NCBI RefSeq assembly: GCF_000739715.2
Contig: NZ_BBJC02000006.1
Span: 1-64,000, forward strand
Direction: 5' to 3'
Source: Falsirhodobacter sp. alg1
GTDB taxonomy: Bacteria; Pseudomonadota; Alphaproteobacteria; Rhodobacterales; Rhodobacteraceae
DNA length: 64,000 nt
Positions 25,091 to 33,287 of this stretch are shown here, piece by piece. A program made the translations under genes and the position numbers. The notes beneath the pieces were generated by a model. It saw only the letters and a list, made by a program, of their open reading frames with translations. It was not told the DNA's origin and did no database searches. Each line of letters starts with the position of its first letter. Position 1 is the stretch's first letter.

Positions 25091-25618
25091 TCAAATGTCG
25101 CCAGATCCCTGTCGTATTTCCTCGGCATGCAGGATACTGCCCACGCCACCACTCGTGGTACCGATCACGCTCAGGCTGCCATCGGTTTCCAGAATGACGG
25201 CAGAAACCTCCGTTTCATTTGCATATCCCGAGGACCGCACGGCTGCGCGCACCTCATCCTCGCGGACGCGCTGTTGGCGCAATGCCTGCTGCAAAAAGCG
25301 TCCCTCCCGCAGCAGAAGGGTGGGTTCGGACCTGACAAGATCGGCAACACCATCAGATCGAACCGACAGCCAAGCGATGATCCACTGCAACCCAGCCAGC
25401 ACGACCAGCGCGGTAATCCCTTCTGCCAGGGCCACCGTTTTGGAAAGAAGCACGGTTGCAAGGGTGGACCCGAGGGCGACGGTCACGACCAGATCGAATG
25501 CGTTCAGCTTTGCCAATGTTCGTTTGCCAGTGATCCGCAACAGCAGCACAAGAATGACATAGGCAAGCGGACCGACCACCAGAATACGCAATATTCCGGA
25601 CCAGTTTTCAAAGAACAT
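25091..25618 (-). CDS. DUF421/YetF-type membrane protein
   Basis: 175 residues. Three N-terminal membrane helices (starting ILRILVVGPLAYVILVLLLR), then a cytoplasmic domain. LRITGKRTLAKLNAFDLVVT is the diagnostic DUF421 motif, and REGRFLQQALRQQRVREDEV followed by VILETDGSLSVI matches the C-terminal YetF domain. Function unknown in the family; some members link to spore or stress physiology. It lies downstream of the catalase gene on the same strand but two strong hairpins intervene, so it probably has its own promoter. Confidence 0.85.
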   Translation of the reverse strand: MFFENWSGILRILVVGPLAYVILVLLLRITGKRTLAKLNAFDLVVTVALGSTLATVLLSKTVALAEGITALVVLAGLQWIIAWLSVRSDGVADLVRSEPTLLLREGRFLQQALRQQRVREDEVRAAVRSSGYANETEVSAVILETDGSLSVIGTTSGGVGSILHAEEIRQGSGDI

Positions 25619-25811: not shown

Positions 25812-27878
25812 TCAGGCCGCCATTGCGCGCGGCCAGAACCGCAGCTTGCGGCAGGCTGCGATGAAATCATCCGCCTGTTCAGCCGCGACAAAGCCGCTGT
25901 CCAATCCGTCGGGCAGGCCAGCCTTGGTGAACAGCGTCTTGGCCGCATCATTATGCGCGCAGAACTTGTAATGCGCCCATGTGGTTGCCGCAAAATCACG
26001 CGCAGCAGGCATCTTTGCCAGCATTTCCACCTGATCTGCCGCAGGCAGAATTGCGACGGCATCGAAAATCGCCGAAGGTGCGCCTTCGACCATTTCATCC
26101 AGAACCAGTTCGGTGCCATCGGACAGCGTGACACTGCCAGCCAGCGGGCCAACGAATTGCACCATGGCCCCTTCGGCCTTGGCGGCGTCGGCAATGCCCG
26201 AGACCAGCGCCACATCCGACCCTTCGGTGACAAGGATACCAACCTTGCGACCGGCAAAGCTGGCCGGACCGTTCTTCAGGATCGACAGTGCCGGGCTTTC
26301 GACCAGATCGGTGCGCGTCGGCAAAGCAGCCTTGGCGGGTGCCGGCATTTCCTTGATCCCCAGCCCCTTGGCCACGGCCGATGCCAGATCATCGTGGATG
26401 TTCAGCAAATGCGACAGCATGCGAACGCGAATGGCCTTCGTCTTAACCTTCGAAAGCTCGAAGATCAGCGCATCGGCCATATGCTCACGCTCCACCTCGG
26501 TCTGGCTGATGTAGAACTGGCGCGCCTGCGAGTAATGGTCGGCAAAGGTTTCGGAGCGGATACGCTCCTTTTTGCCCTCGACGGCAACAGGCGTAGTCTT
26601 GAACCCTTCGGGCGTCTCGCGCGGACCGCCCTCGGTGCCACCCCAGCCGTTCGGTTCGTAATTGGCACGACCCTTCGGATTGTGCATGGCCATATGGCCA
26701 TCCTGCTGGAAATGGTGGAACGGGCAGCGCGGCGCGTTGATCGGAATGTGGTTGAAATTCGGGCCACCCAACCGCTTCAACTGCGTATCGAGATAGCTGA
26801 AGTTGCGCCCTTGAAGCAGCGGGTCCTCGGAAAAATCGATCCCCGGTACGACGTTGCCGGTCTGGAACGCCACCTGTTCCGTTTCGGCAAAGAAGTTGTC
26901 GGGCATCCGATTCAAGACCATACGGCCGATGGGGCGGACAGGCAGGATTTCTTCGGGGATGATTTTTGTCGCGTCCAGCACGTCGAAATCGAACTGTTCG
27001 GCAAAAGCGTCGTCGAACACCTGAACGCCCAGCTCCCATTCGGGGAAATCACCGGACTGGATCGCCGTCCACATGTCGCGGCGGTGGAAATCGGGATCGG
27101 CACCATTGATGCGCAATGCTTCGTCCCAGATCACCGACTGCAGGCCCTGCTTCGGTTTCCAGTGGAACTTGACGAACTGTGATTTCCCCTCGGCGGTAAC
27201 AAAACGGAACGAGTGGACACCGAAGCCTTCCATGAACCGGAAGCTGCGCGGGATGGCCCGGTCGGACATGATCCACATGACCATATGCATCGATTCCGGC
27301 ATCAACGAGATGAAATCCCAGAAATTGTCATGCGCCGTTTGAGCTTGCGGAATATCGGCGTCAGGTTCCGGTTTGGCGGCATGGATAAGGTCGGGAAACT
27401 TGATCGCATCCTGAATGAAGAACACCGGAATGTTGTTGCCCACCAGATCCCAGTTGCCCTGCTTTGTATAGAACTTCACCGCAAAGCCGCGCACGTCACG
27501 CGCCAGATCCATGGAGCCCTTGCTGCCTGCCACGGTGGAAAAACGGACGAAAACCTCGGTCTTTTCCCCTGCGCGCTGGAACAGATCGGCGCAGGTCAGA
27601 TCGGAGATGTTCTCATAGGTCTCGAAATATCCGTGCGCACCATAGCCGCGGGCGTGGACAACCCGCTCCGGGATACGTTCATGATCGAAGTGGAAGATCT
27701 TTTCACGGAATGCCTGATCCTCGATCAGGGTGGGGCCACGCCGCCCGGCCTTCAGACTGTTCTGGTCATCCGATACCGGGGCGCCGACCTGTGTGGTCAT
27801 CGCCGGTACATCCCCGCCGGACTGCTGATGGATTTCGCCACCTGCGCCGGTGGTCGATGTCTGGTCCTTAACTGTCAT
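25812..27878 (-). CDS. katE: Large-subunit catalase (HPII/KatE type)
   Basis: 688 residues, the size of clade 2 catalases. Decomposes hydrogen peroxide to water and oxygen in the cytoplasm. The distal His is in [15 protein letters not shown], the distal Asn in [18 protein letters not shown], and the proximal heme Tyr region reads [16 protein letters not shown]. The last 160 residues (from [16 protein letters not shown]) form the extra flavodoxin-like domain found only in the large catalases. I chose the ATG at 27878, with AGGTG six bases upstream, over a TTG at 27908. Divergent from the glycosyltransferase operon; the short shared region suggests both may respond to stress. Two hairpins follow the gene. 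Confidence 0.95.
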
Positions 27879-28030
27879 GATGCACACCTGTTCGTTGTGT
27901 TCGGTCAACCGCAGGTATGCCGGACATCGATATCGTCAAACGATTTTCAATCAATCATCTTATATCTTTTTCAGCGGGGAACCCGAATGTCGGATCACGC
28001 ATTAGTGTGTGCTCGGCAAAGGAAATATTT

Positions 28031-30004
28031 ATGCATATCATGCACATCGCTATTGGCGGTTGCCTTCGCACGCCGCCAATTCAATACGGGCTGACCGAAG
28101 ATACAGGGGGGCATATCGCCTATATCCTGGGTGCCGCCCACGGTCAGGCAGCCCGCAAGGATGTGTCACGTGTCGATATTGTTACACGCAGTTTCAATAC
28201 CTTCGGCAGCGATTACATGCAGCCTGTCGAGGCAGTGACGGACAGGCTCCGTATTCTCCGGCTGTCAACGGACAGGCAGGATTACCTGACCAAGGATGCG
28301 CTGTGGGCCGAGGTGCCGGAACTTGCCGATGCGCTTTCGGAATTATTGCGGACAACGTCAAAGCCCGATGTATTGCATGCCCATTTTGCCGATGCGGCAG
28401 AGATTGCCTTTGCCGTGGGTGCCAAATTCGGGATTCCGGTCGTCTATACCCCGCATTCGCTGGCGCTTGGCAAACAGGGCGGGCAGCAGGAACACCGGCG
28501 CCTTGCGGCAGAGCATAAGGCCATTGCGCAGGCAGATGCCATCATCGCCTCCAGCCGGGATGAAATAGAGGCACAGATACCGGCCTATGATCCTGCGGCG
28601 ATCACCCGCTGTCACCGGATTGCCCCCGGTGCCTCTACCTTTGCCTCTACATCCGATACCGCAGCGGCGGACCATCTGCTTCACGGGCTGCTGGATGATC
28701 CGCAGAAACCGATCATCCTTGCCATCGCCCGCCCTGTCACAAAGAAAAATCTGCGCGCCTTGGCGCTGGCCTATGCCGGCAATCCCCGCCTGCGGGACGC
28801 GGCCAATCTGGTCATCCTTGCCGGTCAGCATGCCACCGCCGAGCCGGAGGCAAAGGCCATTCTGCATGAGCTGCGTGATATTGCCGCCAGCCTGCCCGGA
28901 ACATTCGCCCTTCCGCCCTCGCATAATACGCAGCAGGTGGCTGCGCTGTACCGGCGGGCTGCCGAAACAGGCGGCGTCTTTGTGAACCCCGCGCTGTTCG
29001 AACCCTTTGGCCTGACGTTGCTGGAGGCAGCACAGGCGGGCCTGCCCGTGGTCGCTACCCGCCACGGCGGGCCATCAACGATCCTTGAACAGCTGGACCA
29101 CGGTATTCTGGTAGAGCCGAAGGATACCGATGCCATTGCGGACGCATGCCTGACGCTGGTTGATGATCGTGATGCATGGCATCGCGCCTCTGCCAATGCA
29201 CTGCGCGGGATCAAGGAGTTTGATTGGACCCGCTATGCCGAGGACAGTGTGCTGGTTTACCGTGGCCTGCGCCGCGCCGCACGGCCGGTCCCGCATCAGG
29301 CGAAGCGCCTGCTGGCCTGCGATATCGATAACACCTTGACCGGCTGCGCGCCCTCGGCCCGCCGGTTCGCGGCATGGGCCGAAAGCGCGCATATCCCCTT
29401 TGCCGTGGCCACGGGCCGGTCGCTGCCCGAGGCGCGCGCCGTGCTGCGTCGGTGGAACCTGCCCGAGCCTGATGCCTTCATCACCTCGGTCGGGACCGAG
29501 ATCTTTCTGCGCGGTACCAAAGGGCTGCACCTGTGCCCTGAATATGATGCCGCACTGGCGACAAGCTGGGACAGGGGGGCGATACAGGATGTGATTGCAG
29601 CCCTGCATCCGGAATGGCAGGCGCAAGTGGATCAGCGCGCGCATAAGATCAGCCTGTTCGGCAGCACCGATATGGCAGCGCGGGTCAGAACGGCCCTGCG
29701 TATGGCAGGGCATCGCGCGCATGTCGTCCATTCACACGGCAGGCTGATCGATATCCTGCCGCCCGCGGGGGGCAAGGCGAATGCCATTGCCCATCTGGCG
29801 GGCCGTTTCAATCTGACACTGGCCGACTGCATTGCCGCCGGCGACAGCGGCAATGATCTGGACATGCTGACCCGCTGTGGCACCGCCATCGTTGTGGCAA
29901 ATGCCAGCGAGGAACTGACGGGACTGCGGCCACGTCCGGGGCTGGTGCGGACACGACAGCCCTTTGCCCGTGGCGTCCTTGAAGGGTTGGAGGGCGTGCT
30001 ATGA
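28031..30004 (+). CDS. Fused sucrose-phosphate synthase-like glycosyltransferase and HAD phosphatase
   Basis: 657 residues from the ATG at 28031, preceded by AAGGA. Residues 1 to about 415 form a GT4/GT-B glycosyltransferase like sucrose- and mannosylfructose-phosphate synthases: IQYGLTEDTGGHIAYILGAA is the acceptor-side loop, YTPHSLALGKQG follows, and NPALFEPFGLTLLEAAQAG is the nucleotide-sugar Glu-x7-Glu motif. From about residue 425 comes a HAD phosphatase: LLACDIDNTLTG (nucleophile Asp), VATGRSLPEA and CIAAGDSGNDLDML. The fusion would make a sugar-6-phosphate disaccharide and dephosphorylate it in one protein. Product could be sucrose, mannosylfructose or another glycoside; not decidable here. 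First of four coupled glycosyltransferase genes. Confidence 0.87.
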   Translation: MHIMHIAIGGCLRTPPIQYGLTEDTGGHIAYILGAAHGQAARKDVSRVDIVTRSFNTFGSDYMQPVEAVTDRLRILRLSTDRQDYLTKDALWAEVPELADALSELLRTTSKPDVLHAHFADAAEIAFAVGAKFGIPVVYTPHSLALGKQGGQQEHRRLAAEHKAIAQADAIIASSRDEIEAQIPAYDPAAITRCHRIAPGASTFASTSDTAAADHLLHGLLDDPQKPIILAIARPVTKKNLRALALAYAGNPRLRDAANLVILAGQHATAEPEAKAILHELRDIAASLPGTFALPPSHNTQQVAALYRRAAETGGVFVNPALFEPFGLTLLEAAQAGLPVVATRHGGPSTILEQLDHGILVEPKDTDAIADACLTLVDDRDAWHRASANALRGIKEFDWTRYAEDSVLVYRGLRRAARPVPHQAKRLLACDIDNTLTGCAPSARRFAAWAESAHIPFAVATGRSLPEARAVLRRWNLPEPDAFITSVGTEIFLRGTKGLHLCPEYDAALATSWDRGAIQDVIAALHPEWQAQVDQRAHKISLFGSTDMAARVRTALRMAGHRAHVVHSHGRLIDILPPAGGKANAIAHLAGRFNLTLADCIAAGDSGNDLDMLTRCGTAIVVANASEELTGLRPRPGLVRTRQPFARGVLEGLEGVL

Positions 30005-31137
30005 CCGCACCCATCGGATATTTCGTGCACCATCAGGGCCGGGGCCATGTCGAGCGTTGCGCCGCATTGGTCAACGCCCTGCCCGACAGCCGTCCCGTCA
30101 CGATCTTCTGTGCGCGCGATGATATATTCCCCGCCCTGCGCCCGAATGTCGGCATCATCCGCATCCCGTCATTGTTCGAACCGACAGGGGCCGAACCCGT
30201 GATGGACTGGGTGCCCACCCCTGCCACGCTCCATTGCGCCCCGCTGGGTTGGCACGGCATCCGTACCGCCATGACACGCATCACCTCATGGTTCGCCGAG
30301 GCAAATCCGGCCCTGATGGTTTGCGATGTATCGGCCGAGGTGGCGCAACTGGCCCGTATCTGTTCGGTGCCGCATATCAAGGTGCTGCAGCACGGGGACA
30401 GGCGCGATCCGGGTCACCGCGCCGCCTATGACGGTGCCGCCGGAATATTGGCCCCGTTCCATTCCGCATTGGCACAACCGGACTGGAATGCGGACATGTT
30501 GCAACGGACATATTTCGCGCCCGGTCTGGGGTGCCCCTCGGGGCCTGTCGCAACGCGGGCGGCGGCGCGTGAACGTCTGGCACTGGATCCCGCGCGCCCT
30601 GTGGTTCTGGTCATGTCGGGCAAGGGGGGCAATGGGTTCGCGCAGGCCCCCATCGCGGTCGGCGCGCGTGCAATGCCCGATGCACAGTGGATCACCGTGG
30701 GCCAGGTGGCCCGTGACTGGCATGCGACAGAGCCTGCCAACCTGCAACATCTGGGCTGGGTCGATGGCGTCGAGGATCACATCGCGGCGGCAGATCTGAT
30801 TGTCGCTTCCACCGGAAATACCACCTGTCAGCAAATCCTGAACGCGGGGCGCCCGTGGATCGCCGTGCCCGAATGGCGCTATTTCGATGAACAGGTTCTG
30901 AAGGCCCGCGCCCTCCATGCTGCCGGGGTGGCGCTGCATCTGCCCTCCCTGCCCTCCTCGGCCCACGCATGGCAAGAGGCTGTCGCCACGGCCCGGTCCA
31001 CGCATGATCCGGCCCGCCAGCAATCCCTTGCGGGTACAAACCCTGCCCCCGAGGCCGCAATGTGGCTGGAAGGCGTGATCACCCGCCTGTGGGGCAATGC
31101 TGCCGACAATGTCATTTCCCTCTCAACCGCTTCCTGA
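30001..31137 (+). CDS. MurG/GT28-like glycosyltransferase
   Basis: 378 residues; the start ATG overlaps the preceding stop (ATGA). GT-B fold: the N-terminal GYFVHHQGRGHVERCAALV is the glycine-rich loop of this class with an acidic-basic pair, ARPVVLVMSGKGGNGFAQAP begins the C-terminal nucleotide domain, and DLIVASTGNTTCQQILNAGRP matches the donor-site region where MurG-like enzymes have GGxxTxxE-like segments. Soluble, cytoplasmic or peripheral. Sits between the synthase/phosphatase fusion and a GT2 enzyme, so it probably adds a further sugar to the same product. Donor and acceptor unknown. Confidence 0.78.
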   Translation: MTAPIGYFVHHQGRGHVERCAALVNALPDSRPVTIFCARDDIFPALRPNVGIIRIPSLFEPTGAEPVMDWVPTPATLHCAPLGWHGIRTAMTRITSWFAEANPALMVCDVSAEVAQLARICSVPHIKVLQHGDRRDPGHRAAYDGAAGILAPFHSALAQPDWNADMLQRTYFAPGLGCPSGPVATRAAARERLALDPARPVVLVMSGKGGNGFAQAPIAVGARAMPDAQWITVGQVARDWHATEPANLQHLGWVDGVEDHIAAADLIVASTGNTTCQQILNAGRPWIAVPEWRYFDEQVLKARALHAAGVALHLPSLPSSAHAWQEAVATARSTHDPARQQSLAGTNPAPEAAMWLEGVITRLWGNAADNVISLSTAS

Positions 31138-31146
31138 GGTTTGCCC

Positions 31147-32103
31147 ATGATCCCTTCGACCGCATCCGTTCTGACCATTGCCAAGGGCCGTGACGCACAT
31201 CTGCGCAATGTGATGCTGGGCCTGTCGCGCCAGACCGTCCTTCCGGCAGAGCTTGTGATTGCCCGTATGCAGGAGGCCCCCTATCAGGACCTGCCGGAAA
31301 TGCCCTTTCCGGTGCGGCAGATCGCCGTCACGGGGCCTGAACTGCCCTTGGCGCGCGCACGTAATGCGGCAGCAGGTCTGGCCACGGGTGATCTGCTTGT
31401 CTTTCTGGATGTGGATTGCATTCCCGCCCCGACATTGGTGCAGGATTATCTGGACGCGGGGTTTGACGGCCTGATGATGGGAGAGGTGATGTATCTGCCC
31501 GGAGGTGCCAACGCAGCCGGATGGACATGCACCGGTTTCGACACCGTGGCCGTGCGCCATTCCGACAGGCAAGGCCCTCCCGCCGACGGGGTGGAGATCT
31601 GCACCGATTACCGTTGCTTCTGGTCGCTGAACTTTGCCCTTCCAGCGCATGTTTTCGCCAAGGTGGGCGGCTTTGACGAACGGTTCACCGGATACGGCGG
31701 CGAGGATACGGACTTCGGCAAGACACTCAGCATGGCGGGGCAACGCATCGGCTGGATTGCCGGGGCAAAAGTCTACCATCAGTACCATCCCCACCATATG
31801 CCCCCCGTGCATCATCTGCACAGCGTGGTCCGGAATGCCGAGCTGTTTGCCGAAAAATGGGGGTACCGCACGATGGAGCATTGGCTCTACGCCTTCATGC
31901 TGATGGGTTTGATCGACAATTCCGGCCCGACCATCCGTATTCTGAAAGAACCGGACGAGGCCGACATCGCGTTGACACGCCAAAGCCCGGACATGCCCTA
32001 TGCCAATACCGCCTCGGTCATCCGGCTGTTGAAGGCGCGGCTGGCAGCGGTGGATGCCGCAGGGCAGAAATCGCTTCTGCGCCCGGCCATCGCGGCGGAA
32101 TGA
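31147..32103 (+). CDS. Family 2 glycosyltransferase (GT-A fold)
   Basis: 318 residues. GT-A fold: VLTIAKGRDAHLRNVMLGLS starts the nucleotide-binding domain, LARARNAAAGLATGDLLVFL ends in the metal-binding Asp-x-Asp (LDVDCIP), and VGGFDERFTGYGGEDTDFGK is the acceptor/catalytic Glu-Asp (ED) motif of GT2/GT27 enzymes. No membrane helices, unlike polymerising synthases. The ATG at 31147 has GAGG seven bases upstream and follows the previous stop by nine bases. The stop overlaps the next start (ATGATG). The His-rich QYHPHHMPPVHHLHS segment after the ED motif may coordinate metal. Confidence 0.82.
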   Translation: MIPSTASVLTIAKGRDAHLRNVMLGLSRQTVLPAELVIARMQEAPYQDLPEMPFPVRQIAVTGPELPLARARNAAAGLATGDLLVFLDVDCIPAPTLVQDYLDAGFDGLMMGEVMYLPGGANAAGWTCTGFDTVAVRHSDRQGPPADGVEICTDYRCFWSLNFALPAHVFAKVGGFDERFTGYGGEDTDFGKTLSMAGQRIGWIAGAKVYHQYHPHHMPPVHHLHSVVRNAELFAEKWGYRTMEHWLYAFMLMGLIDNSGPTIRILKEPDEADIALTRQSPDMPYANTASVIRLLKARLAAVDAAGQKSLLRPAIAAE

Positions 32104-33287
32104 TGCGGATTGCGGTCATTTCGCATGTGCGCCATCCGATCGCGCCGCCGTTTATGGGCGGGATGGAGGCGCATTCCTGGGCGCTGACCCATGCACTGAT
32201 GGCGCGGGGGCATGATGTGACGCTGTTCGCGGCAGCGGATAGCGACCCTGAGTTCAACATCCACCCCATTCTGCCCGAACACTACGATCTGAAATATCCG
32301 TGGAACGATTATATCGAGACGCGGGTCCTGCATGATTATCTGGATGCAGGGTTTGCCCGTGCCATGCAGGGGATGGTGGACGGCGCATTCGACGTGGTCC
32401 ACAACAACTCGCTGCATCGCTATCCGCCGCGCCTGGCACGTCAGCACAGGGTTCCTACCGTTACCTCGCTGCATATTCCGCCCTTTGACGCGATCCACCG
32501 CGCCGTACGTGAGAGCTGCGCGCCATGGTCGCTGTTCACCGTTACATCAGCCAAGCAGATCGAGTGCTGGTGGCCCGAAGGCCCCCCACCCGAGGCGCAT
32601 ATCGCCCATAACGGTATCGATCTGGGGCAATGGCCGTTTTCACCACAGGGTAATGGAAGTGCGGTCTGGTCAGGGCGCATCTCGCGGACCAAGGGACCGC
32701 ATCTGGCGGTGCAGGCGGCGCTGCGACTGGACCTGCCGCTGACCCTGTTCGGCGTTATCGAGGATGCGGAGTATTACGAGGCCGAGATCAAGCCGCATCT
32801 GGGCACGCTGATCCGCTACGGGGGCCATCTGCGGACACATGCCTTGGCCCATGAGATGGGCCGCGCCTCTGTCCTGCTGTTCACGCCGCTTTGGGATGAA
32901 CCCTTTGGCCTGGTCGCGGTAGAGGCGATGGCCTGCGGAGTGCCGGTTGCCGCGCTGGATATGGGGGCCGCTCGCGAAATCATCGGTGAGGCCGGATATT
33001 TTGCCCACCCCGAAGATACCGTCGGTTATGACACGGCAATCCGGCGCGCGATGGACATCCCGCGCACCATCCCCCGCAACAGGGTAGAGCGGCTGTTTAC
33101 CATCGACCGCATGGTGGACCGGTACGAAGGATTGTACCAGTCCGCAATGCAGGGGCTGGCCGCCGAATTGCCATCCGTAACATTTCCCCCCATCGAACTG
33201 CCGGAAATGGATCGGCCCATGGCCCACCCCGCCCCGACCGCTCAGGGGAATGGTTTCAGCCTCGGGGGTCCCAGCCTTCGGGCGTGA
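32100..33287 (+). CDS. Family 4 glycosyltransferase
   Basis: 395 residues from an ATG that overlaps the stop of the GT2 gene; the next codon is also ATG (32103). GT-B fold: FMGGMEAHSWALTHALMARG is the N-terminal GG-loop, SGRISRTKGPHLAVQAA the start of the donor domain, and FTPLWDEPFGLVAVEAMACG the Glu-x7-Glu signature. DMGAAREIIGEAGYF is also standard. The last 30 residues are low-complexity and Pro-rich, and the end overlaps the convergent phytase gene by 32 bp. Last gene of the four-gene glycosyltransferase operon. Confidence 0.85.
   Translation: MMRIAVISHVRHPIAPPFMGGMEAHSWALTHALMARGHDVTLFAAADSDPEFNIHPILPEHYDLKYPWNDYIETRVLHDYLDAGFARAMQGMVDGAFDVVHNNSLHRYPPRLARQHRVPTVTSLHIPPFDAIHRAVRESCAPWSLFTVTSAKQIECWWPEGPPPEAHIAHNGIDLGQWPFSPQGNGSAVWSGRISRTKGPHLAVQAALRLDLPLTLFGVIEDAEYYEAEIKPHLGTLIRYGGHLRTHALAHEMGRASVLLFTPLWDEPFGLVAVEAMACGVPVAALDMGAAREIIGEAGYFAHPEDTVGYDTAIRRAMDIPRTIPRNRVERLFTIDRMVDRYEGLYQSAMQGLAAELPSVTFPPIELPEMDRPMAHPAPTAQGNGFSLGGPSLRA

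Follow-up and report, generated by a model that had tools for sequence, protein, structure and literature searches.

The mannosylfructose-phosphate synthase/phosphatase route of Agrobacterium, an alphaproteobacterial pathway with an osmolyte role, pairs a glycosyltransferase (GT) resembling sucrose-phosphate synthase (SPS) with a HAD phosphatase resembling sucrose phosphatase (SPP) and makes a disaccharide in two steps. In the cyanobacterial sucrose/glucosylsucrose pathway, an SPS-type starting enzyme adjoins a GT4 enzyme that extends the core (TeSPS, tll1590, and TeGSS, tll1591; alr1000 in Nostoc), and the product rises under salt and heat (PMC9909042). Here, we analyzed an operon of four glycosyltransferase genes (genes 1-4; Table 1) in a 64,000-nt stretch of DNA from Falsirhodobacter sp. 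alg1 (contig NZ_BBJC02000006.1, positions 1 to 64,000 of the forward strand; hereafter, the window), which starts with an SPS homolog fused to a phosphatase and ends with a homolog of TeGSS. Our favored interpretation, which we regard as fairly probable, is that the operon encodes a cytoplasmic general-stress pathway, controlled by EcfG, for a small, soluble, probably non-reducing oligosaccharide built on a sucrose-like core.

Gene 1 resembles the Agrobacterium pair, to which it is likened by description only; unlike the operon, that route comprises no three extra GTs. Compared with the cyanobacterial pathway, the operon has a fused phosphatase, two more GTs (one GT-B and one GT-A) and EcfG control, and the acceptor contacts differ in the homologs of both SPS (Gln to His) and glucosylsucrose synthase (Tyr18 and Trp10). 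Another close relative is the EcfG-dependent gene set #3505-#3509 of Sphingomonas melonis Fr1, which by position and sequence fingerprints (position only for #3505) is the same operon, with the difference that it is followed by a pyruvyl-transferase-like gene, of which there is none in the window; the passages of that paper dealing with these genes describe them just as glycosyltransferase/exopolysaccharide genes, with neither a product nor a phenotype (PMC6599016). SPS, SPP, glucosylsucrose synthase and the EcfG regulon are all known already, but in the open literature (subscription papers and supplementary tables being outside the scope) we found no paper that treats the four-gene operon as a pathway, and no characterized sucrose or lipopolysaccharide (LPS) cluster containing this set. 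The claim of the original prediction that no such pathway has been described thus stands within this scope, with the qualification that the S. melonis genes had already been published as EcfG-dependent.

The relatives of the operon were collected by scanning one genome per species with gene 2 and keeping the best 80 of the 215 stretches obtained, so that the set is biased toward close relatives. All four genes are found together in 79 of the 80 loci, and in 73 they form a compact, same-strand series in an unchanged order; in the exceptions, gene 4 is displaced (L073, L090, L094 and L110), inverted (L100 and L111) or unmatched (L076). Hence, the neighborhood comparison suggested in the original prediction revealed homologs that are kept together rather than scattered, a set unique to this locus is ruled out, and the grouping of the genes is not due to chance. 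Judging from the record titles, the loci come mainly from Rhodobacterales, Sphingomonadales or Acetobacterales. One record each bears the name Pseudochelatococcus (L055), Microvirga (L049) or Arthrobacter (L067), and the latter two look Sphingomonad-like and are perhaps misnamed. Correlations of 0.86-0.92 were obtained between the pairwise distances of the four proteins (a descriptive measure over the 72 sets common to all four alignments). Residue counts given below cover 79, 76, 80 and 79 sequences for genes 1 to 4, respectively, after open reading frames (ORFs) of odd length were dropped; start codons of the relatives were guessed from tblastn matches, and the counted sequences are kin rather than independent, with no tree-based correction.

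The operon is patchily distributed. Of 101 genomes sampled, 8, counting that of the window, carry gene 2 at ≥55% identity, as do 6 of the 7 sampled from the window's genus; relatives of gene 2 were detected in 4 of 385 genomes of an even sample of the class (E≤1e-30) and in 16 of 398 genomes of a phylum sample (E≤1e-20), again counting the window's own genome. Relatives of gene 1 are carried on 29 plasmid records, including those of Paracoccus (10), Sulfitobacter (6) and Acidithiobacillus (2). Since 24 of the 29 plasmids are predicted in PLSDB to be non-mobilizable, we describe these relatives as plasmid-borne, not as mobile.

Gene 1 consists of a GT4 part (approximately residues 1-405) and a HAD-IIB part (residues 425-654). 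In a profile search, the solved structure nearest to the GT half was the SPS of Halothermothrix orenii (2r60, E=2.2e-63), whose matched 499-residue chain is without the phosphatase part and carries GGQ where the gene 1 family has GGH. The HAD half aligned best, with matching HAD motifs, to the Synechocystis SPP (1s2o); its DIDNT motif contributes D431 and D433 and is accompanied by GDSGND, and its scores exceed the cut-offs of both PF05116 (S6PP; 155.4 bits against 20.3, E=2.6e-45) and the HAD-IIB subfamily TIGR01484 (67.9 bits against 41.8). The residues responsible for SPS chemistry in gene 1 match those mapped in TeSPS, where His158, Glu331, Arg105, Arg178, Arg249 and Arg253 are catalytic or phosphate-binding (PMC7264703). 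With 6kih chain numbers taken as native + 3, the first five correspond to H142, E324, K88, R157 and R234 of gene 1, each present in 79/79 sequences, and Arg253 corresponds to K238 (74 Lys and 5 Arg). Because these residues are kept, the gene 1 enzyme would be expected to work, as SPS does, with a nucleotide sugar and a phosphorylated acceptor.

Several features of gene 1 weigh against a start that is strictly that of sucrose synthesis. The match to the SPS equivalog TIGR02472 (299.2 bits) falls short of the cut-off of 576, as do those to the SPP equivalogs TIGR02471 (134.7 against 209.75) and TIGR01485 (95.9 against 183.65). Furthermore, Gln51 of TeSPS, reported to hydrogen-bond the fructose hydroxyls (PMC7264703), lies in the GGQ motif of the acceptor site and is replaced by His28 in all 79 gene 1 sequences, an equivalence drawn from chain ranges and from the aligned Gln of 2r60, 4rbn and 3s27, the 6kih column itself not being printed. 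Accordingly, the acceptor may not be fructose 6-phosphate and the core may not be sucrose. The sucrose- or mannosylfructose-like core put forward in the original prediction is therefore favored by the catalytic and phosphate-binding residues but called into question by the invariant His. Finally, the HAD half is missing from gene 1 in at least 6 Acetobacterales loci (L065, L066, L079, L081, L104 and L109) and in Falsirhodobacter algicola (L157:2232-3446), which means that in these loci the phosphatase is dispensable or supplied from elsewhere. In L072, gene 1 is even shorter and possibly broken.

The changed acceptor contact raises the alternative that gene 1 glycosylates the phosphate of inositol, glycerol, a pentose or a ketose, in which case the product would be a small-molecule oligoglycoside that resembles sucrose less than it does glucosylglycerol or the mycothiol precursor. 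This would fit the clear relationship of gene 1 to MshA, which glycosylates inositol phosphate (TIGR03449, 117 bits; 3c4q, E=9e-37), and the proximity of gene 4 to a tetrahydrobiopterin glucosyltransferase. However, SPS is far nearer to gene 1 than MshA is, by both profile and structure matches, and the fused phosphatase is of the sucrose-phosphatase type, so that we regard a non-sucrose acceptor of this kind as rather unlikely.

The putative extension of the core finds its closest precedent in gene 4, a Glycos_transf_1 protein with 8x3q and 7fg9 as its best solved matches. The structures 7fg9 and 7fga represent TeGSS, a UDP-glucose:sucrose alpha-1,2-glucosyltransferase whose gene adjoins that of SPS in Thermosynechococcus (PMC9909042). 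In an alignment to 8x3q, with numbers taken as native + 3, the donor-phosphate residues Arg179 and Lys184 of TeGSS correspond to R193 and K198 of gene 4 and are present in 79/79 sequences. The acceptor side is different, which counts against transfer to sucrose itself: the sucrose-facing Trp10 is replaced by Arg11 in 78 of 79 sequences (one has a gap), and the column of Tyr18, at Met19, holds 40 Met, 17 Ala, 10 Leu, 8 Lys and others, with Tyr in 0 of 79. On sequence grounds, gene 4 is thus related to glucosylsucrose synthase but cannot be shown to be that enzyme, and, given the changed acceptor sites of both genes 1 and 4, the acceptors need not equal those of the characterized enzymes.

Genes 2 and 3 have no counterpart in the cyanobacterial pathway. 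Gene 2 scores barely above the cut-off for Glyco_tran_28_C (25.7 bits against 22), and its AlphaFold2 model (mean predicted local distance difference test, pLDDT, 91) has a fold closest to CalG3, OleD and other soluble glycosyltransferases acting on small molecules; MurG is absent among the 50 fold matches listed of the 442 with E≤0.001. Gene 2 is thus a GT-B enzyme with a GT28-C domain, and its description as MurG-like corresponds to a weak profile match (TIGR01133, 19.7 bits against 250); on this score and on the fold, a MurG or peptidoglycan role was rejected. Gene 3 matches Glyco_transf_7C and Glyco_tranf_2_2 and carries the motifs DVD and GGEDTD, with D88, D90, E186, D187 and D189 present in 80/80 sequences; the folds nearest to its model (pLDDT 93) are those of the chondroitin polymerase K4CP and polypeptide GalNAc transferases. 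In 4 loci (L043, L054, L055 and L068), genes 2 and 3 are fused into a single ORF of 707-722 amino acids.

SPS-SPP fusions on their own are a known route to sucrose, and gene 1 might accordingly make plain sucrose or mannosylfructose, with genes 2-4 contributing to an unrelated glycan under a common promoter. An SPS-HAD gene does occur apart from the other three genes on an Acidithiobacillus plasmid (the one opened of two), next to genes annotated as a GH100 enzyme and a PfkB kinase, and sets of the three GTs with no match to gene 1 also exist (see below), such that the link to gene 1 is not absolute. Nevertheless, the near-universal co-occurrence of the four genes with their correlated divergence, as well as the fusion of genes 2 and 3, makes a plain sucrose operon the less likely reading, indeed a most improbable one.

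Under stress, the response regulator PhyR frees EcfG from NepR, the established mechanism of the general stress response (GSR). We searched the 200 nt upstream of gene 1 for an exact EcfG-type site, defined as GGAAC-N17-20-RTT; after exclusion of L061 and L107, 78 of the 80 regions could be used. An exact site was identified in 34 of the 78 regions (29 with GTT), compared to 1.4% of segments drawn at random from these loci and to a mean of 2.0 and a maximum of 9 in 200 dinucleotide-shuffled sets. Among the other 44 regions, 30 carried, within 80 nt, a site with one mismatch to GGAAC, a spacer of N16-19 and CGTT (mean 1.2 and maximum 6 in 100 shuffled sets), so that 64 of the 78 regions have the element in one form or the other. 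The exact sites end 14-64 nt 5' of the gene 1 start, and their spacers vary between genera, whereas close Sphingomonas relatives have common spacers. All 6 cluster-bearing members of the window's genus (the window, L150, L151, L152, L033 and L038) have an exact site, as do 5 of 14 further loci.

Other results of the promoter search point away from EcfG control. Neither an exact nor a one-mismatch site was found in 14 of the 78 loci, and the exact site was missing from 9 of the 14 further loci, chiefly distant ones (Methylobacterium-like or with other arrangements). The promoter of the window itself has the weaker ATT form, and the window as a whole contains 13 matches to the EcfG-type element, against 11.5 expected by chance. 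For this reason, the lone match in the window was discarded as evidence, and it is the conservation of the promoter that is significant.

The genome carrying the window encodes the core of the GSR: the genes for PhyR and NepR lie side by side with that of a HisKA_2/HWE kinase and that of an extracytoplasmic function (ECF) sigma factor occupying the position of EcfG (G000:C1, L116). Overlapping GGAAC...GTT sites on both strands are located between phyR and nepR-ecfG (L116:3378-3409) and fit autoregulation, as expected. What is telling is the place of these sites, not their number, because the 3 matches in this 7-kb locus were reached in 28 of 200 shuffles.

Furthermore, EcfG-dependent transcription has been demonstrated experimentally for the orthologous cluster of S. 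melonis. Genes #3506-#3509, which follow one another and carry annotations as glycosyl transferases or, in the case of #3509, as an exopolysaccharide protein, are among the 50 most EcfG-dependent genes of strain Fr1 (expression reduced by 3.3 to 4.3 log2 units when EcfG is missing), and the region upstream of #3505 drives EcfG-dependent expression of lacZ, measured as beta-galactosidase activity (PMC6599016). A malto-oligosyltrehalose/GlgX gene cluster is likewise EcfG-dependent in that strain (PMC6599016). We located the four published S. melonis upstream sequences in the locus L070 of S. aquatilis (1, 2, 1 and 0 mismatches), in positions that place the corresponding starts on, or no more than a few codons away from, those of genes 2, 3 and 4 and of the following pyruvyl-transferase gene; L070 and L067 were the only ones among the 80 loci to contain all four at ≤3 mismatches. 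Thus, the #3506-#3509 operon is the Sphingomonas form of the cluster, and #3505, by its position, probably corresponds to gene 1. Two observations argue in the opposite direction: #3505 is classed by the authors as a putative indirect EcfG target (PMC6599016), and a second paper on a GSR regulon, that of Sphingopyxis granuli, contains no word starting with 'glycosyl' in its main text, although the presence of the operon in that strain was unchecked. Taken together, the conservation of the EcfG-type promoter and the results for S. melonis strongly support the stress pathway envisaged in the original prediction.

On this basis, the proposed pathway would operate as follows. Upon stress, PhyR would release EcfG from NepR, and EcfG would transcribe the operon from the site 5' of gene 1. 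The N-terminal half of the gene 1 product would use a nucleotide sugar to add a hexose to a hexose-phosphate, for example, fructose 6-phosphate, and its HAD half would strip off the phosphate, rendering the step irreversible and leaving a sucrose-like disaccharide. The products of genes 2, 3 and 4 would lengthen this core into an oligosaccharide of up to approximately 5 sugars, which would accumulate and protect the cell against drying, salt or oxidants; in the relatives, the product may additionally carry sulfate or pyruvate. GT4 enzymes are retaining, and GT28/GT1 and GT7-like enzymes are inverting, so a hetero-oligosaccharide with mixed alpha and beta linkages would be expected. The sugar identities, linkages, order of the steps, solubility and protective role of the product are what we infer from the enzymes; the core is putatively sucrose-like, and the fact that no metabolite is known for the operon speaks against the proposal.

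The solubility of the product is suggested by three lines of evidence, namely, the hydropathy of proteins 1-4, which have no clear transmembrane stretch, the small-molecule-glycosyltransferase fold of gene 2 and the lack of an export gene among the identified recurrent neighbors. The highest mean over 19 residues, 1.74 in gene 4, would by itself count against a cytoplasmic enzyme, but it falls inside the donor-site motif and is read as that motif rather than as a membrane segment. The soluble, extended oligosaccharide of the original prediction is thus supported, short of proof.

If the proposed pathway is correct, the SPS/phosphatase start and the relative of glucosylsucrose synthase turn four anonymous glycosyltransferases into a testable pathway, and alphaproteobacteria from leaves and the sea would make an unrecognized stress-response oligosaccharide, whose genes are in some cases carried on plasmids and which may be sulfated or pyruvylated, to survive drying, salt and oxidants. 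Such a compound would be relevant to desiccation tolerance, to the unexplained pools of oligosaccharides in metabolomes of marine and phyllosphere origin and to the search for new protective sugars.

The genes flanking the cluster in the relatives bring in the main alternative, a stress-induced surface or envelope glycan, such as an exopolysaccharide side chain, a glycolipid or a protein-linked glycan, with the genes for export and ligation located elsewhere. Neighbor counts were obtained with a heuristic ORF caller and one or two profiled representatives per group and are lower bounds. Sulfotransferase genes (PF13469) flank at least 24 of the 80 loci, all of Rhodobacterales type, and, in loci of Sphingomonad type, genes for a polysaccharide pyruvyl transferase (PS_pyruv_trans, PF04230; at least 20/80) and an extra GT2 (at least 24/80) lie downstream of the cluster. 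Sulfo and pyruvyl groups also suit exported glycans, which tells against a cytoplasmic product, as does the annotation of #3509 as an exopolysaccharide protein (PMC6599016); moreover, roles in LPS or biofilms have been suggested for leaf-induced glycosyltransferases, which may or may not include these genes (PMC9123166); ASF14_08960 and ASF14_03660 of that study might correspond to the cluster. Conversely, no flippase, polymerase, ligase, priming phosphoglycosyltransferase or exporter was detected among the identified recurrent neighbors of the 80 loci, a non-exhaustive set in which many neighbors are unprofiled. The start by a phosphatase-coupled SPS should yield a sugar that is free and dephosphorylated rather than bound to a lipid, and both the absence of a clear membrane segment and the fold of gene 2 are at odds with assembly of an envelope glycan. 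We therefore consider a surface glycan unlikely, though less so than the other alternatives.

No decorating genes are present beside the window operon; elsewhere in the same genome, on other contigs, there are one match to PF04230 and two to PF13469. In at least 7 and 5 of the 80 loci, respectively, mostly from Acetobacterales, genes for TreY and GlgB are found beside the cluster. A GH92 gene and a second conserved gene are located upstream of the cluster in 8 loci of Sphingomonas type (L040, L059, L064, L069, L075, L080, L084 and L087), the GH92 assignment having been checked with Pfam in L075.

Beyond the 80 loci, distant relatives in L142-L147, L153 and L158 keep the GT4, GT-B and GT-A genes with no match to gene 1 in the fetched stretch, and L142 additionally has no match to gene 3. 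In L143-L145, these GT genes stand together with genes for an acyl-CoA-dehydrogenase-like protein and a NodS-like methyltransferase (the latter identified in L143 by BLAST only), and the Rhodococcus locus L158 (3825-7843), whose first GT gene has no Pfam family match, has a SigB/SigF/SigG gene within 4 kb, with four other genes between. A further arrangement, in L140 (3891-9960), L141 and the Methylobacterium locus L154 (9001-15136), comprises an SPS-HAD gene, a second paralog of gene 3, genes 2, 3 and 4 and a divergent second GT4, and an exact EcfG-type site is missing from the 200 nt preceding gene 1. The relatives with no match to gene 1 suggest a portable module with exchangeable starters. 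Conceivably, although we hold this only tentatively, a three-enzyme extension module (GT4, GT28/GT1-like GT-B and GT2/7C-type GT-A) is combined with host-specific starters and decorations and placed under the general stress control of each host, defining an undescribed class of stress oligosaccharides. With the same reserve, the starters and decorations might be the SPS-phosphatase in the operon studied here, sulfate in Rhodobacterales, pyruvate in Sphingomonads and the acyl-CoA-dehydrogenase-like protein and NodS-like methyltransferase in another branch, with the Rhodococcus version near the SigB/SigF/SigG gene as a further case.

The four plus-strand ORFs of the operon were found exactly at the coordinates given in the original prediction (Table 1), with the same overlaps and gap (4 bp shared by genes 1 and 2, 9 bp between genes 2 and 3 and 4 bp shared by genes 3 and 4), and Pfam confirmed its domain calls for the fused gene 1, the GT2 and the GT4. 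Gene 3 could alternatively start from a TTG at 31141.

Table 1. Features of the operon and its surroundings, in window coordinates
Feature	Coordinates	Strand	Remarks
Gene 1	28031..30004	+	657 aa; SPS-type GT4 fused to SPP-type HAD-IIB phosphatase
HAD / sucrose-6F-phosphate phosphohydrolase domain of gene 1	29303..29992	+	PF05116; DIDNT and GDSGND motifs
Gene 2	30001..31137	+	378 aa; GT-B glycosyltransferase with GT28-C domain
Gene 3	31147..32103	+	318 aa; GT-A glycosyltransferase of GT2/GT7C type
Gene 4	32100..33287	+	395 aa; GT4 related to glucosylsucrose synthase (7fg9) and tetrahydrobiopterin glucosyltransferase (5ze7)
EcfG-type promoter element, GGAAC-N18-ATT	27978..28003	+	Ends 27 nt 5' of the gene 1 start codon
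HPII-type (KatE) large catalase, context only	25812..27908	-	Divergent from the operon; start codon uncertain

The large catalase divergent from the operon, which had been taken as an argument for a stress function, finds little support in that role. An HPII-type catalase gene lies in the flanks of just 4 of the 80 loci (L090, L094, L107 and L110) and in one member of the second family (L144, 8350-10431), and no exact EcfG-type site was found on the catalase strand between 27801 and 28031, which weakens the catalase as a key to the function of the operon. At 925 bits, the score of the catalase in the window stays under the cut-off of the HPII equivalog (1102). On the other side of the operon, a phytase-like gene (PF02333; 33256-34569) is convergent with gene 4 and shares its last 32 bp. 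A gene for a YetF/DUF421 membrane protein (25091-25618) adjoins the catalase gene.

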